Shown in pieces: positions 24,681-40,331 of a stretch of 64,000 bases of DNA. Location of the stretch: contig CP087563.1 in the NCBI GenBank assembly GCA_020974905.1, positions 4,526,001 to 4,590,000 on the forward strand. Reading direction: 5' to 3'. A program made the position numbers and the translations under genes. The notes under the pieces were generated by a model. It did no database searches and was not told where the DNA came from. It saw only the letters and a program-made list of their open reading frames with translations. How positions within the stretch are numbered: the stretch's first letter is position 1; the number at the start of each line of letters is the position of its first letter. This DNA is from Planctomycetes bacterium syqfu (GTDB lineage: Bacteria; Planctomycetota; Phycisphaerae; Phycisphaerales; Phycisphaeraceae).

Positions 24681-26873
24681 ATGAATGACACCCCCGGAAA
24701 TCCCGGAAACCCGGAAAATCTCACCCCGATCAGCGAGATGCCCAATGAGGAGTTATTCCTTAATCGCGAATCCAGTTGGTTGGAGTTTAACCGGCGTGTG
24801 CTTCATGAAGCATTGGACAGCCGAACGCCATTGCTTGAACGTGTGGCATTCCTGGCGATCTTCAATTCCAATCTCGATGAATATTTCCAAAAGCGCGTCG
24901 GCGGACTCAAGCGGCAGATCAATGCAGGCGTCACCACCCGCACAGTCGATGGCATGACCGCGCAGGATCAACTGGCCCTGATCCGTTCGACCGTGCTCGA
25001 AGATTTGCAAACACAGGCCAAGTGCTTTGAGGAACAGGTCAAGCCTGCTTTGGCTCAAGAAGGTGTACATCTACTTAAATGGGATCAACTCACCGACGAA
25101 GAAAAGCAGTACACCGATGACTACTTTGAAGACAACCTTTTCCCGGTCCTCACACCGTTGGCAGTGGACCCCGGTCACCCGTTCCCGTTTATCAGTAACC
25201 TTTCGACTTCGCTGGGTGTGATTCTGCGTTACCCTGATGGGGCATCAACGCATGACGATTCGGAGACGGGTGAGATTCAGTTTGCCCGTGTGAAGGTGCC
25301 GCGTATTTTACCGCGATGGGTCCGCCTGAATGAAGGTGGCGAAGACTATCGATTCATTCACCTTGAGGATCTGATTTACCAGTATCTGGATCGTCTGTTT
25401 GAAGGGATGATCATTGAAGACGCCATGCCGTTTCGCATCTCGCGTAATGCGGATGTTGAACGTGATGAGGAAGATGCTGAAGACCTGTTGGAACTGGTCG
25501 AACAGGAGTTGCGTGAGCGTCGCTTTGCCAAGGTCATTCGCCTTGAGGTGCCATCCAATCCCAACGAGAAGATGGTTCGGTTCCTCATGGAGGAATTGGA
25601 ACTCGATGAGAATGATGTCTACGTCATGCCTTCGGAACTGGATTACACCGACCTGTGGCTGATTAACGGCTTGAGCATCCCGCGCTTGTCCAACAAGCCC
25701 TGGCAACCGCAGACGCCGGTGCGATTGATGGACACCGAGGCGGACATTTTCAGCATCATTCGTGGCGGTGACATTCTGGTGCATCACCCGTACGACTCGT
25801 TTGCTGCCAGTGTCGAGCGGTTCATCGCTGCTGCTGCTAGAGACCCCAAGGTCGTTGCCATCAAGTTGACGTTGTACCGGACCGCCAAGGACTCGCCGTT
25901 CATCCCGCAGTTGATTCGTGCTGCTGAGGAAGGCAAGCAGGTGGTCGTGCTCGTGGAACTCTCAGCCCGCTTCGACGAAGAGCGTAACGTGGCGTTGGCC
26001 CAGACCCTGGAAAAAGCAGGCATTCACGTGGTCTACGGTCTGGTCGGACTCAAGACGCATACCAAGACCGCGCTGGTTGTCCGACAGGAAGCTGACGGCA
26101 TGCGTTCGTATTGTCACATCGGCACCGGCAACTACAACTCCAAGACCGCCAACCTCTACACCGACTTGGGCCTGTTCACCGCCAAACCGCACATCACCAG
26201 TGAACTCACGCAGGTGTTCCACTTCCTCACCGGCCGCAGTCTCAAGCGTGACTTCAAGCATCTGCTTGTCGCACCCATCAACATGAAGCGTCGGTTCTAT
26301 GAACTGATCGATCGCGAGATCACCCACACCATCGCATGGAAGGAACGTGGCGGTGATCTGAACGATCCGAACCGGCCTAAGATCATTGCCAAGATGAACA
26401 GCCTTGAAGACCGGGGCATTGTCCGCAAACTTTACGAAGCCTCGCAGGTCGGTGTCCGCATCGACCTGAATGTCCGCGGATTCTGCTGCCTGAAGCCCGG
26501 AGTCCCCGGTATGTCGGATAACATCAAGGTCATCAGCGTCATCGGTCGATTCCTTGAACACGAACGCATTTACTACTTCCACAACGAAGGTGCTCCCGAG
26601 TACTTCATCGGCTCAGCTGACTGGATGTACCGCAACCTCAATAACCGCGTTGAATGCATCACCCCCATCCAGGAACCGTCACTACAGAAGAAACTCTGGC
26701 ATATTCTCGAGACGCTGTTTAACGATCAGCGTCAGGCGTGGGACATGCAGCCCGATGGCAAATACATCCAACGCAAGCCCCAGAACGAGACTCAGGAAAA
26801 AGGCACCCACGACATCCTCATGGAAGTCACCAAGCGCGAAATCCTCGGGGTCACCGGCAAGGGAGGCCGCTGA
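24681..26873 (+). CDS. ppk1: Polyphosphate kinase 1
   Basis: 730 residues, typical size. It polymerises the gamma phosphate of ATP into polyphosphate. Family motifs: NRESSWLEFNRRVLHEA at the N-terminus, NSNLDEYFQKRV, DPGHPFPFISNLS, YDSFAASVERF, LVELSARFDEERNVALA, LKTHTKTALVVR (containing the histidine region that is phosphorylated in the family), YCHIGTGNYN and IGSADWMYRNLNNRVE. All four PPK1 domains (N, H, C1, C2) are therefore present. The ATG at 24681 has CAGGA upstream; an upstream in-frame start at 24621 would add residues not in the family. No ppx is beside it. Confidence 0.96.
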   Translation: MNDTPGNPGNPENLTPISEMPNEELFLNRESSWLEFNRRVLHEALDSRTPLLERVAFLAIFNSNLDEYFQKRVGGLKRQINAGVTTRTVDGMTAQDQLALIRSTVLEDLQTQAKCFEEQVKPALAQEGVHLLKWDQLTDEEKQYTDDYFEDNLFPVLTPLAVDPGHPFPFISNLSTSLGVILRYPDGASTHDDSETGEIQFARVKVPRILPRWVRLNEGGEDYRFIHLEDLIYQYLDRLFEGMIIEDAMPFRISRNADVERDEEDAEDLLELVEQELRERRFAKVIRLEVPSNPNEKMVRFLMEELELDENDVYVMPSELDYTDLWLINGLSIPRLSNKPWQPQTPVRLMDTEADIFSIIRGGDILVHHPYDSFAASVERFIAAAARDPKVVAIKLTLYRTAKDSPFIPQLIRAAEEGKQVVVLVELSARFDEERNVALAQTLEKAGIHVVYGLVGLKTHTKTALVVRQEADGMRSYCHIGTGNYNSKTANLYTDLGLFTAKPHITSELTQVFHFLTGRSLKRDFKHLLVAPINMKRRFYELIDREITHTIAWKERGGDLNDPNRPKIIAKMNSLEDRGIVRKLYEASQVGVRIDLNVRGFCCLKPGVPGMSDNIKVISVIGRFLEHERIYYFHNEGAPEYFIGSADWMYRNLNNRVECITPIQEPSLQKKLWHILETLFNDQRQAWDMQPDGKYIQRKPQNETQEKGTHDILMEVTKREILGVTGKGGR

Positions 26874-26875
26874 CC

Positions 26876-26903
26876 CATTTAGCCGCATCGCTTGCGATGC
26901 GAT
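26876..26903. repeat. Hairpin repeat after ppk1
   Basis: GCATCGC-TT-GCGATGC follows TTTAGCC immediately after the ppk1 stop codon. It is related to the arms at 19523-19606 and may act as a 3' end or RNA-stability element. No T run follows. Confidence 0.55.
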
Positions 26904-26948
26904 TGGGGACTCGCATTACCGCAGACATTTGATATCCTGTTAAACGAA

Positions 26949-27026
26949 ATGATCAAGACAACCACCACAACCACGACTGTGACTACCACGCCCGAATTAA
27001 ACGGGGACGTGTCGCTGGTTGTTTGA
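26949..27026 (+). CDS. Threonine-rich leader peptide of thrS (candidate attenuator)
   Basis: A 25-residue frame starts ATG ATC AAG and reads MIKTTTTTTTVTTTPELNGD then VSLVV. Ten of 25 residues are threonine, seven in one run. It ends 28 bp before a terminator hairpin (27055-27086) and about 250 bp before thrS, the threonyl-tRNA synthetase gene. This is the layout of a ribosome-stalling attenuator like the E. coli thr operon leader, but in front of a synthetase. The ribosome-binding site is weak (AAACGAA). A hairpin GTTTGA...TCAAAC (27021-27038) and a possible antiterminator (27003-27014 with 27055-27064) support switching. Expression is not shown. Confidence 0.75.
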   Translation: MIKTTTTTTTVTTTPELNGDVSLVV

Positions 27027-27086
27027 GCTTGATCAAACAGATATGAAAACCATCACGACCGTCCAACGTTGGGCGGTCGTTTTTTA
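27003..27086 (+). promoter_or_regulatory. Attenuator region of thrS: antiterminator, pause hairpin and terminator
   Basis: GGGACGTGTCG (27003-27014) can pair with ACGACCGTCC (27055-27064) as two 4-bp blocks, competing with the terminator stem. TGGTTGT (27016-27022) can pair back to ACAACCA in the Thr-codon run (26957-26963). A ribosome stalled on Thr codons would mask that run and favour the antiterminator. The pairings are by eye; no folding energy was computed. Confidence 0.55.
27055..27086 (+). terminator. Attenuator terminator upstream of thrS
   Basis: ACGACCGTCCA and TGGGCGGTCGT form an 11-bp stem with one G-T pair and a small loop, then TTTTTT. It lies between the leader frame and thrS, where a terminator would block thrS transcription. 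Confidence 0.85.
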
Positions 27087-27089
27087 TTG

Positions 27090-27194
27090 TCAGGCGAGCC
27101 GCGTCGTGTCGGTGCGGGATTGACCCCAGGTCAATGTTTCAAACCATTTGAGCTTCGCTCAACCCCGCCGCAACACGCAGCGGCTCGCCTGAAC
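27090..27194. repeat. REP pair of the RAYT-associated family, copy 1
   Basis: CAGGCGAGCCGCGTCGTGTC at 27090 and the opposed CGCAGCGGCTCGCCTG ending at 27193 form an inverted pair about 105 bp long. It lies in the 5' region of thrS, after the attenuator. The same sequence flanks the transposase gene at 62309. Confidence 0.8.
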
Positions 27195-27273
27195 AGAGCA
27201 ATCACCTTTGTGGTGAAGCACGAGAGAGCGCGATACACTATGCAACTCGCTCAAAAATTCAGGAGTCCGACAG

Positions 27274-29532
27274 ATGAAAGTCACCCTTCCCGACGGAAGC
27301 GTTAAAGAATTTGATAGTCCGGTCAGTGCCTACGACGTGGCGATGACCATCGGTGAAGGTCTGGCCAAGGCTGCCATCGGTGCCCGGGTCAATGGTGTAC
27401 TCACCGACGTGAACCGTCCGATCACCGAAGATTGTGACCTGGGCATTGTCACCGCACCGCGCTTCGACAAGAAGGGTAAATCCAAATGGCGTGATGAAGA
27501 CCACGAAAAGGACGCGCTGTACCTGCTGCGTCACTCCACCGCCCACGTCATGGCAGAAGCGATTAAACGCATCTGGCCAGATGCCGAACTTGCGTATGGT
27601 CCGCCGTTGGATAACGGGTTTTACTATGACATCAAACTCGACACCCCGATCAGTGCGGATGACTTCGGAAAGATCGAAGAAGAAATGAGATTTGTAGTTA
27701 AGGGCAATAAGCCATTTATGCGGCTTGAGCTTCCACTAGATCGTGGGTTTGAAAAGCTTAAGAATGAAAAGAATAAATATAAGATAGACAATGCTGAAAA
27801 GGCTCAACAAAATGGGGCTACCACATTAAGTTGGTATTACACAGGTGAGCCTGATTTTATTAAACAAGGCGGCGGAAAAAAAGCTTACTTGATACGCTCG
27901 GGGTATGGCCTAAAGATTTGGAGCGTCCCCCCAGAAAATGTTGCTGGCAATGTCATGAATGGAGTGATTGTTGATACAACAGGCACTGATCTTGATATTG
28001 AAGGATTCATAGATAACGCAAGCGAACCAAGCCGTGCACATTTCGAAGACTTGTGTATGGGGCCGCACGTACCCAATACATCTTTCATCGGCGCTTTTAA
28101 GGTGATGAGCATTGCCCAATCACACTGGCATGGTGATATCGAATCCGACGCCTTTCAGCGTGTGTACGGCACCGCGTTTTTCTCGCAGGCTGATCTCGAT
28201 GATCACATGGAAAAACTCGAAGAAGCCCGCAAGCGCGATCACCGCGTTGTCGGTCGCAAGCTTGGACTTTTTGAAATCAATGACACCGTGGGCCAGGGTC
28301 TGATTCTCTGGAAACCCAACGGTGCTGTCGTTCGCCAGGAACTCCAGAATTTCATCTCCCAACACCTCGAACGCCAGGGATACAGCCAGGTCTTCACGCC
28401 ACACATTGGCAAGCTTGATCTCTACCGCACTTCCGGCCACTACCCCTATTACTCCGACTCGCAGTTCCCCCCGCTGGTCGACCGCGAAACGATCAAGAAG
28501 CTCGGTGACGAAGGTTGCAGCTGCTCCGATTTGGCAAACCATCTTGAAAACGGTGAGATCGAAGGCTATCTGCTTAAGCCGATGAACTGCCCGATGCACA
28601 TCAAGATTTTCGACTCGGAAAAACGCAGCTACCGCGACCTGCCCATCCGCTTGGCCGAGTTCGGCACGGTGTACCGCTGGGAGCAGTCCGGCGAACTGGG
28701 GGGCATGACGCGCGTCCGTGGCTTTACCCAGGATGACGCACACCTGTTCGTCACCCCGGATCAGTTGGCCAAGGAAGTGCTCGGCTGTATCGAACTGGTC
28801 AAGATCGTCTTCAAAACGTTGGGCATGGATGACTACCGCGTCCGCGTGGGTCTGCGTGACCCCGACTCCACCAAGTTCGTAGGCAACAGTGATGACTGGG
28901 ATCAGGCGGAAAAAGCCTGTATCGACGCTGCCCAATCTCTGGGTGTTCCCTTCAGCAAGGAACCGGGTGAAGCAGCCTTCTACGGCCCGAAGATCGACTT
29001 TGTGGTCAAGGACGTGATCGGTCGCGAATGGCAGCTTGGCACGGTGCAGGTGGACTACCAACTGCCCCAGCGGTTCAAGCTTGAGTACATTGGTGCGGAC
29101 AATGCACCGCACGTGCCGATCATGATCCACCGCGCGCCGTTTGGTTCGATGGAGCGTTTTGTTGGCGTACTCATCGAACACTTCAACGGCGCCTTCCCGC
29201 TGTGGCTGGCGCCGGAGCAGGTGCGCGTACTGCCGATCTCCGACAAGTTCACGGATTATGCTGACAAGGTTCTTGCAGCACTCAAGGCCAAGGGTATGCG
29301 TGCAACATTGGACAGCTCCAACGAACGCGTCAATGCCAAGATCAAGGACGCCCAGGAAATGAAGGTGCCCTACATGCTCGTCGTCGGAGGTCGCGATGCC
29401 GAAGCCGGCACGGTCAGTGTCCGCGAACGCTTTGAAGGTGACCTGGGTGCCTTAGCTTTGGAAGACTTCGTCAATCAGGCCAAAGCCGAAATCGACAGCA
29501 AGGGTGAAAGCCGCGTGACGGTCAGCAAGTAA
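27274..29532 (+). CDS. thrS: Threonyl-tRNA synthetase (long form with AT-rich internal patch)
   Basis: 752 residues, longer than the usual ~640. Order: TGS domain (1-65, LPDGSVKEFDSPVSAYDVA); editing domain with HSTAHVM (H87, H91) and DLCMGPHV (~259-266); class II catalytic core with RDHRVVGRKLGLF, MNCPMH, GGMTRVRGFTQDDAHLF, MIHRAPFGSMERF; and an anticodon-binding domain (~640-752, VPYMLVVGGRDAEAGTVSV). All zinc and editing ligands I know are present. Residues ~137-289 come from DNA of about 40% GC with other codon choices, and ~70 extra residues (from LSWYYTGEPDF to ASEPSRA) precede DLCMGPH. AGGAG fixes the ATG. Probably attenuated by the leader at 26949. Confidence 0.96.
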   Translation: MKVTLPDGSVKEFDSPVSAYDVAMTIGEGLAKAAIGARVNGVLTDVNRPITEDCDLGIVTAPRFDKKGKSKWRDEDHEKDALYLLRHSTAHVMAEAIKRIWPDAELAYGPPLDNGFYYDIKLDTPISADDFGKIEEEMRFVVKGNKPFMRLELPLDRGFEKLKNEKNKYKIDNAEKAQQNGATTLSWYYTGEPDFIKQGGGKKAYLIRSGYGLKIWSVPPENVAGNVMNGVIVDTTGTDLDIEGFIDNASEPSRAHFEDLCMGPHVPNTSFIGAFKVMSIAQSHWHGDIESDAFQRVYGTAFFSQADLDDHMEKLEEARKRDHRVVGRKLGLFEINDTVGQGLILWKPNGAVVRQELQNFISQHLERQGYSQVFTPHIGKLDLYRTSGHYPYYSDSQFPPLVDRETIKKLGDEGCSCSDLANHLENGEIEGYLLKPMNCPMHIKIFDSEKRSYRDLPIRLAEFGTVYRWEQSGELGGMTRVRGFTQDDAHLFVTPDQLAKEVLGCIELVKIVFKTLGMDDYRVRVGLRDPDSTKFVGNSDDWDQAEKACIDAAQSLGVPFSKEPGEAAFYGPKIDFVVKDVIGREWQLGTVQVDYQLPQRFKLEYIGADNAPHVPIMIHRAPFGSMERFVGVLIEHFNGAFPLWLAPEQVRVLPISDKFTDYADKVLAALKAKGMRATLDSSNERVNAKIKDAQEMKVPYMLVVGGRDAEAGTVSVRERFEGDLGALALEDFVNQAKAEIDSKGESRVTVSK

Positions 29533-38417: not shown

Positions 38418-40331
38418 TCACGAATTCATCGAGACGAGATTAATCGTCGGTTGGACTTCGACGGGGATACTGATGGTAAAGGTTGACCCCTTGTTGAGTC
38501 CGTCGGAATGGGCATTGATGCTGCCATTGAGTTCACTGACCGCCAGGGCAGCGGAATGAAGTCCGACACCGCGTGCTGATGGATTGGTGGTAAAACCATG
38601 CTCAAAGATATTGGGTAATTGCATTGGATCAATCCCACAGCCGGTATCGTGGACGGTGATCTGAAGGATGCTGTTGTCGATGAGATGGGCTGAGACATGC
38701 AGGCGACGTTGATCGTCGTCAACTTTCTCCAGGGCATGACGGGCATTGGTCATCAGGTTGGTCAAGACCTGTGCCAAACGATAGGCATCGACCTTGATCA
38801 ACTGCTCGACACTGACCTGGACATGCGTGAGAATGTTCTTGAGATTCATATCTTCAGCATCAATGGCAAGTACATCACGAATCAATCGCTCAATGTCAGT
38901 GTTGACGTAGATGGCATGGTTGTTGCCATGGGCACTGGGGGTTTGCGGGCGAACGAGTTGGCGGATGTGTTCCATGGACGAGCCGATGTCCTCAAGATCG
39001 TCCTCCAATTGCTTGTCGGATTTGCGATCCCACTTAAGCAGCACATCACGAACAATGCGGCAGCGCGGGGACTTGAGCACCAGGCGTCTGGCAACCACGA
39101 ACAGGATCAGCATCACGACTGCCTGAATGCCGACAAACCACATCGCCAGACGATTGGATGCCTGATCCGCCGGCTTGGTGAACGTGGAGACCGGCACGAC
39201 CATCACCACGTTCCAATAGGTCCGGGGCATGTGAAAGACACTGACCATGCACGGCTCACTGACCAGCGGCATACTCGCCAAGGTCATGCGGCGGACCTGG
39301 CGCGGATTCAGTGCTTTGACCTTTGTCTGATCAAACATCGAGGCGATGAGCATTTGCGTTTGCTGCGTGGTCAATGCCGGATACTTGCGATGCAGTTCAT
39401 CGACACGCTGGGTGAAGTTCACCATATTCTGCTGAGCATTCTGAATCATGCGAATGTTCATTTCGTCATGAAGTTCAGCAATGCGCGACATGCCCGGAAG
39501 CTTGGTGGTGACATCCTTGAGATTCAGATATTCGGTCTGTACGTCGCCAGCTTCGCCCACATGTTCCTGCCGAATCATGTCCATCTGTGGGAAAGCAACG
39601 AATCGTCCCTCACGATCAACCACAAACAGGTACCCGCCGATGGTGTTGGCGGCTCGGATCAAGGTACGGTTCAGGCCATCGAGTTTCAGGTCGATGGTGG
39701 CCACGCCGTTGAACTGCTGCTCTTTGTAAATGGGGACGGTGCAGGTGACCATCGGCTGGAGTGAATAGGGATCGGTATAGGACCGTGACCAGATGGCAGC
39801 GGATGGCGGATAGTATCGGCCGGGGATGTACCAGTGTTCCATGTGGTATCCCGGGCCATTGGGGTCGTTGTAGTCGTCGTAGTATTTGAGTGAACCATCG
39901 GGCTCCATCCCCCAGAAGAAGCTGCGACGTTCGACAGCAGGATCAAACGCATAGGGTTCCGGCCAGATACCTCCACCTGCCACCACGTCACGCATGTCCG
40001 GCGGGACGATGATCTGGCTAAAGAGTTTCTGATATCCCGCAGGCTCCGGTTCGACCACCTGGGCCAACTCCGCCAAAACGCGCGTCTGGTTTTGTGCTTG
40101 AAGAATCACCCCGTTGAGATCTGAGACCACACGCAAGCCAAGCTGCTCAGCGTAGTCTTCCCCCTGGCGAACCAGCAGGGAACGTTGCACGGTGTAAATC
40201 ATGGTGACGCTGGCAATGATCAGAACGCCAAACACCAGCAGATGAGCGAATGTCAGCCGGAATGACAGGCTTTGACGCCAACGACGTACCAACCGCCACA
40301 GATGAGGATTTTGGCTGACGGGACTTTTCAT
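38418..40331 (-). CDS. Cache-domain sensor histidine kinase-like protein without an obvious H-box
   Basis: 637 residues. A first membrane helix (~30-52, LTFAHLLVFGVLIIASVTMI) and a second near residue 400 flank a large periplasmic cache sensor (GGIWPEPYAFD, PMVTCTVPIYKEQQFNGVAT, GGYLFVVDREGRFVAFPQ). The C-terminus is an HATPase: LMTNARHALE (N box), HDTGCGID (G1), GVGLHSAALAVSELNG (G2). The usual SHExxxPL phospho-acceptor helix is missing; the only nearby histidine is in SMEHIRQLV. So ATP binding is likely but autophosphorylation is doubtful. No response regulator is adjacent. The ATG at 40331 is chosen over a TTG at 40349. Confidence 0.82.
   Translation of the reverse strand: MKSPVSQNPHLWRLVRRWRQSLSFRLTFAHLLVFGVLIIASVTMIYTVQRSLLVRQGEDYAEQLGLRVVSDLNGVILQAQNQTRVLAELAQVVEPEPAGYQKLFSQIIVPPDMRDVVAGGGIWPEPYAFDPAVERRSFFWGMEPDGSLKYYDDYNDPNGPGYHMEHWYIPGRYYPPSAAIWSRSYTDPYSLQPMVTCTVPIYKEQQFNGVATIDLKLDGLNRTLIRAANTIGGYLFVVDREGRFVAFPQMDMIRQEHVGEAGDVQTEYLNLKDVTTKLPGMSRIAELHDEMNIRMIQNAQQNMVNFTQRVDELHRKYPALTTQQTQMLIASMFDQTKVKALNPRQVRRMTLASMPLVSEPCMVSVFHMPRTYWNVVMVVPVSTFTKPADQASNRLAMWFVGIQAVVMLILFVVARRLVLKSPRCRIVRDVLLKWDRKSDKQLEDDLEDIGSSMEHIRQLVRPQTPSAHGNNHAIYVNTDIERLIRDVLAIDAEDMNLKNILTHVQVSVEQLIKVDAYRLAQVLTNLMTNARHALEKVDDDQRRLHVSAHLIDNSILQITVHDTGCGIDPMQLPNIFEHGFTTNPSARGVGLHSAALAVSELNGSINAHSDGLNKGSTFTISIPVEVQPTINLVSMNS

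Follow-up and report, generated by a model that had tools for sequence, protein, structure and literature searches.

A threonine-rich leader frame and a probable transcription attenuator upstream of thrS in a planctomycete, with a possible second terminator layout in the same class

How is thrS, the threonyl-tRNA synthetase gene, controlled in a planctomycete in which a short frame made up largely of threonine codons lies in front of it? In the window, by which we mean the whole stretch of 64,000 nucleotides analysed, a first-pass annotation had pointed to a 25-codon frame with ten Thr codons, seven of them consecutive, followed 28 bp later by a strong intrinsic terminator and then by thrS. 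Translation bears out the frame (Table 1), with the uninterrupted run at 26958–26978 and all four Thr codons in use (ACC four times; ACA, ACG and ACT twice each). The terminator scanner recovered the hairpin with its T tract; the hairpin has a folding energy of −18.7 kcal/mol and starts 28 nt past the leader stop codon (27024–27026). The downstream protein scores 619.8 bits as threonyl-tRNA synthetase in NCBIfam (cut-off 383.65). Folding of 26940–27090, proposed with the annotation as a check, gave −49.4 kcal/mol and a z of −3.9 relative to 200 shuffles. The gene 5′ of the leader, on the same strand, encodes polyphosphate kinase and has its stop at 26873. The window holds one other run of at least six Thr codons (39863–39883, minus strand), which was dismissed as a second leader because it lies off-frame inside a 643-codon ORF; across the 7.38-Mb genome the six-Thr-codon pattern has 9 matches, counted on both strands and with overlapping matches within one run taken separately. 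Within thrS itself, codons 140–262 (27691–28059) are AT-rich, with 41% G+C as compared with 54% and 57% in the remaining parts, and this stretch holds an extra segment (approximately residues 194–255) that is missing from most relatives' synthetases and aligns with several close ones.

Table 1. Features of the thrS upstream region, with positions in the window.
Feature	Position	Strand	Basis
P1: −10 element TATCCT, preceded by TGA (extended −10)	26933–26938	+	sequence; −10 position rule in relatives
Leader peptide frame, MIKTTTTTTTVTTTPELNGDVSLVV*, 25 codons, 10 Thr	26949–27026	+	translation; similar frames in relatives
Outer protector strand, takes in two start-codon bases; pairs with 27028–27035	26950–26957	+	fold
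Control codons (Thr codons 4–10 and 12–14)	26958–26990	+	translation, codon count
Protector strand 1 (Thr-codon RNA); pairs with 27011–27022	26967–26977	+	fold
Antiterminator 5′ strand (GGACG U GUCG); pairs with 27056–27064	27005–27014	+	stalled-ribosome folds; duplex versus shuffles
Protector strand 2, overlaps antiterminator strand	27011–27022	+	fold
Intrinsic terminator hairpin, 11 bp, loop 4	27055–27080	+	terminator scan, fold
Terminator U tract	27081–27086	+	sequence, terminator scan
Palindromic repeat, 103 bp, 45-nt arms, 78% complementary, between attenuator and thrS	27090–27192		repeat search
P2: conserved block GCGATACACTAT, −10-like TACACT at 27234–27239, 3′ of terminator	27230–27241	+	identical in four same-genus genomes
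thrS, threonyl-tRNA synthetase; TGS, SAD, class II core and anticodon-binding domains	27274–29532	+	NCBIfam, domain search

Our preferred reading, to which we assign a probability of about 0.87, is that a ribosome-mediated transcription attenuator controls thrS. A leader frame in which 10 of 25 codons specify Thr stands before the gene and recurs in relatives, an intrinsic terminator lies between this frame and the structural gene, and computation also confirms the alternative pairings, as predictions, and the position of a −10 element. From these elements we infer the following course of events. RNA polymerase would start a few bases before the leader start codon, as judged from the −10 position, and the Thr-rich frame would be translated by a ribosome on an mRNA that is leaderless or almost so. 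With threonyl-tRNA plentiful, the ribosome would reach the stop codon and cover the antiterminator strand, or leave and let the Thr-codon RNA re-pair with that strand; in either case the terminator would form and transcription would stop. With threonyl-tRNA in short supply, the ribosome would stall on the Thr codons, the freed antiterminator strand would pair with the terminator 5′ arm, and polymerase would read on into thrS, yielding more enzyme. Since all four Thr codons are used, the signal read is probably the total charging of Thr-tRNA rather than that of one isoacceptor. A second promoter 3′ of the terminator (P2) probably provides a basal level of thrS.

The pairings required for such a switch are predicted at the locus. 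Without a ribosome, 26967–26977 pairs with 27011–27022, which includes the TGGTTGT near 27016 that the annotation had named as the partner of the Thr run, and 26950–26957 pairs with 27028–27035. Because the second protector strand overlaps the antiterminator strand, the two pairings are mutually exclusive. When a stalled ribosome is represented by a mask with its A site at any of five codons in 26958–26988, and the free RNA ahead of the terminator 3′ arm is folded, the antiterminator is predicted; it consists of 27005–27009 and 27011–27014 paired with 27056–27064, and thus falls within the broader limits first suggested (27003–27014 with 27055–27064). A mask for a ribosome at the stop codon gives the terminator hairpin instead. 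At equilibrium the complete free RNA of the stalled state still forms the terminator; antitermination therefore requires, as in the classical attenuation model, that the antiterminator form before the terminator does. The antiterminator duplex at this locus has a dG of −20.2 (p 0.013 versus shuffles), and among 24 leaders it reaches p≤0.05 against dinucleotide shuffles in 15, with a mean z of −1.9; the other nine fall short of p 0.05, three of them (L139, L170 and L096) being no better than shuffles, and the protector pairing is weak in several leaders. The combined antiterminator p of 2e-13 is no true probability, the rows being related. Comparison of this genome with the same-genus genome G003 reveals a change of terminator base 27064 from C to U that is matched by G to A in both of its alternative partners, 27071 in the terminator and 27005 in the antiterminator. 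This compensating change is one base triple, and, since a G-U pair is possible, combining the strands of the two genomes crosswise has a cost of only about 1 kcal/mol. Prediction and this one compensating change together suggest that terminator and antiterminator exclude each other, that a stalled ribosome would free the antiterminator and that a ribosome at the stop codon would block it.

The position of the putative promoter P1 bears on how the leader would be translated. The last base of TATCCT lies 10 nt ahead of the leader start codon, which predicts a 5′ UTR of approximately 0–5 nt. A sigma-70 promoter scan of 26500–27700 found no consensus promoter, and the promoter argument therefore depends on the −10 element. 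Of 25 leaders of the window's type (23 from the order sample and two from the class sample), 23 carry a TANNNT hexamer that ends 4–11 nt ahead of the start codon, the misses being L139 and L170; the background, searched over 3–12 nt, was 91 among 1660 other ATGs. Selection of the start codons by eye, next to the Thr run, somewhat favors this result, and longer in-frame starts exist upstream. The rule holds only for leaders of the window's type and applies to none of the seven leaders of families f15 and f25 and none of three from Opitutales. A Shine-Dalgarno-like tetramer was found in 0 of 28 leaders as compared with 10 of the 28 thrS starts at the same loci. The weak ribosome-binding site that the annotation had listed as a caveat is explained by a −10 element just before the start codon; the leader mRNA is, on these sequence features, probably leaderless or nearly so.

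Comparison of thrS upstream regions from relatives, the principal check proposed for the attenuator, gave a positive though patchy result. For the order, thrS was found in 56 of 61 genomes and the upstream DNA of all 56 was taken; one region below 250 nt was dropped, and the remaining 55 include that of the window. Of these 55, 23 have a short frame with at least 5 Thr in ten codons, and in 20 this frame is followed by a terminator within 110 nt, as compared with 1 of 55 for the best other residue, His, and this enrichment supports the attenuator reading. Of 56 regions, 17 have a ten-codon window with at least 8 Thr, and the count for every other residue stays at 7 or below; at the lower bar of 6 of 10 codons, Arg-rich windows (19/56) are nearly as frequent as Thr-rich ones (22/56). 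The search of the class found thrS in 154 of 159 genomes, from which 60 regions spread over families were taken; Thr frames are present in 11 of the 60, five with a simple terminator, as compared with two Pro frames with a terminator. Upstream of pheS, 25 usable regions of 30 loci contained no Phe-rich and no Thr-rich frame, and Arg frames and Ala frames with a terminator were each present in 4 of the 25, which illustrates the background in G+C-rich DNA. The class comparison of five with two and the Arg and Ala frames before pheS indicate that a Thr frame with a terminator is not a strict criterion by itself.

A further 17 class regions were added for the positive families f15 and f11, and the pooled count of Thr-rich short frames before thrS, 39 of 132 (Arg 14, Ala 10, Leu 10), is thereby biased upward. 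These frames belong to families f1–f6, f11, f15 and f25, and are absent from the remaining 93 regions. Spacing from stop codon to terminator is 24–31 nt in 19 of the 24 leaders with a recognized terminator. On a tree of 132 N-terminal synthetase fragments, in which the window's own was too short and one genome (G028) was scored as lacking the leader despite upstream DNA too short for a decision, 27 changes are required for the leader as compared with 33.3 for shuffled labels, and 4 of 500 shuffles were as low. On this tree the Thr leader is clustered, and its distribution suggests frequent loss or regain. Outside the class, 60 of 131 thrS-bearing genomes from the search of the phylum were sampled and gave two raw matches, neither of which was counted: L358, attributed to chance after inspection by eye, and L383, in which a 39-codon frame reaches 5 of 10 Thr. 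Among 72 usable regions from 80 named contigs, mostly Verrucomicrobiota, five matched; three (L039, L040 and L042) match close relatives already counted and the other two are from Opitutales (L084 and L096). A third member of Opitutales, L094, was found by the codon-window scan, so that Thr-rich frames precede thrS in three of these Verrucomicrobiota; the thrS start is uncertain for all three because the query matched only from residue 70–85.

The same-genus genomes bear on a second promoter, which the annotation had placed near a TACACT at 27236 and which, lying past 27086, it had regarded as potential evidence against attenuation. The P2 block is identical in 4/4 same-genus genomes despite differing DNA between it and the terminator. 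One of them, G002, an incomplete assembly in which thrS is split over two contigs, has lost the leader frame and P1 and kept the terminator and P2, with a weak remnant of the antiterminator (−6.2 versus −17.0 kcal/mol); the weakness of this remnant in a genome that lacks the frame counts in favor of the attenuator. Because thrS is expected to be essential, we infer that P2 must work in G002; P2 is thus probably used in at least one same-genus genome, and attenuation is probably not the only input to thrS. The concern about a downstream promoter is in part borne out, and these observations lend some weight to a reading in which the attenuator is largely vestigial in the genus, with thrS transcribed from P2 and little contributed by the upstream element. 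We nevertheless consider this reading unlikely. G000, G001 and G003 retain the leader frame, Thr run, terminator and antiterminator, with the compensating change described above, and outside the genus, 12 of the 17 order members that have a terminator show only 39–91 nt between its end and thrS, which leaves little room for a second promoter. Transcription from P2 could bypass the attenuator and would lower the degree of control that the attenuator has over thrS, not its existence.

A different output from the same sensor is considerably less probable. The Thr frame could act through Rho-dependent or translational control, or the RNA could be an operator bound by threonyl-tRNA synthetase as in E. 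coli, and a terminator was not recognized in 4 of 28 leaders (L127, L130, L084 and L094), as such readings would allow. The terminator at this locus is strong, mutually exclusive pairings are predicted, and an Rfam scan of 26000–28500 found no family, T-box included, at the gathering score. That the terminator instead serves the polyphosphate kinase gene directly upstream on the same strand, with the Thr frame a chance ORF, is very improbable given the recurrence of Thr frames before thrS, their spacing to the terminator and the −10 element beside the start codon.

Attenuation by a translated Thr leader may take a second form within the class. Six class leaders (L235–L238, L240 and L241) lacked a simple terminator in the first scan, and a search for long-range hairpins was therefore made. 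In family f15 and in G174 of family f25, the partner of the terminator 3′ arm is a stretch of RNA that ends at the leader start codon or overlaps it, so that the Thr frame sits within a terminator loop of approximately 100 nt. Seven of eight such hairpins tested reached p≤0.021 against shuffled 5′ sides, L242 being the failure; these p-values are somewhat optimistic, as the most favorable T tail was taken. The arms vary between genomes yet remain complementary. An automatic search found eight loci, seven in f15 and one in f25 (L235, L237, L238, L241, L261, L385, L389 and L391), at which a frame with four or more Thr directly follows the 5′ arm of a long-range hairpin, this arm abutting the start codon; L236 and L240, both recognized earlier, were missed by the search. 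The hairpin search alone is unspecific, with candidates in 32 of the 77 regions from the class, 16 of the 55 from the order, 6 of the 60 from the phylum and 4 of the 72 from named contigs, and it is the combination with such a frame that is confined to f15 and f25. L393 has the hairpin with only two Thr, and L242 with three. We tentatively suggest, at somewhat less than even odds, that one class combines the same Thr sensor before thrS with two types of terminator: a leaderless arrangement with a classical antiterminator in the window's order, and a two-part attenuator with the frame in the loop in f15 and G174. In the latter, a ribosome stalled near the start would block the terminator 5′ arm directly, and no antiterminator would be needed; the layout is possibly a simpler attenuator.

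Ribosome-mediated attenuators are known for biosynthetic operons and pheST in gamma-proteobacteria, and share with the present locus the codons of the regulated amino acid and the competition of protector, antiterminator and terminator. They differ in the gene, which is thrS here, in the host, a planctomycete, and in the leader mRNA, which here appears to be leaderless. Control of thrS is exerted by a T-box in Firmicutes and a translational operator in E. coli; these act on the same gene and signal, whereas the present locus matches no T-box model and its sensor is a translated frame. In 2020 Canestrari reportedly described leaderless polycysteine attenuators of mycobacteria, which, by title alone, resemble this leader in having a one-codon run in a leaderless short frame, and which concern cysteine and other genes. 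A study of Streptomyces lividans (PMC8079986) lists leader peptides before aminoacyl-tRNA synthetase genes (thrL-thrS, alaL, trpL2, leuL2) and reports thrL as a leaderless frame before thrS, as proposed here; two of its 18 residues are Thr and it has no clear terminator of the intrinsic type, as opposed to ten Thr and a strong terminator at the present locus. The first-pass view that the systems described for Thr synthetases use a T-box or protein autoregulation thus needs correction, a Thr leader before thrS being already on record in this bacterium; for Phycisphaerae, none of the matches listed in the open-access literature describes attenuation by a leader peptide or a thrS gene preceded by a Thr leader. 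PMC1262725 names pheST as attenuated, describes attenuators for trpS and leuS in Streptomyces and reports no conserved structures before threonine operons in Actinobacteria; PMC2965389, of 2010, mentions autoregulation of E. coli ThrRS and gives Proteobacteria and Actinobacteria as the only groups with known leader-peptide systems until its own case in Firmicutes; and PMC4833913 treats leader genes of Planctomycetes in general, with the word thrS absent from the main text. By the present results, the bacteria in which translated leaders control an aminoacyl-tRNA synthetase would be joined by one class of Planctomycetota and, it appears, by a few Verrucomicrobiota, with control codons far more numerous than in S. 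lividans, the one printed thrS case found. The leaderless start and the frame-in-loop variant would form a natural series for asking how few parts an attenuator needs. Planctomycete cell organization has been debated, and attenuation of this kind implies close coupling of transcription and translation in these bacteria.

Leader frames were also found before leuA, where 8 of 21 usable regions, from 30 loci taken, have a Leu-rich frame with a terminator; a Thr frame precedes leuA in 1 of the 21, and that frame is also Leu-rich. In the window's own genome the leuA leader is MKQQTTYSNIHSDSKDLLGLLLLSVRG (L402:853–936), followed, by eye, by a hairpin and T tract, and the leuA leaders of two relatives end in LLGLLLI(P/S)SAG. 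The palindromic repeat that lies between attenuator and thrS has 81 matches in the genome, with both strands and single arms counted, and received the sole Rfam match listed, an irrelevant one to a microRNA model at 26 bits (gathering 80). Inspection by eye showed a similar element in G002, where it separates the terminator from P2, and other repeats in G001 and G003. One copy of the palindromic repeat is located directly 5′ of the leuA leader.
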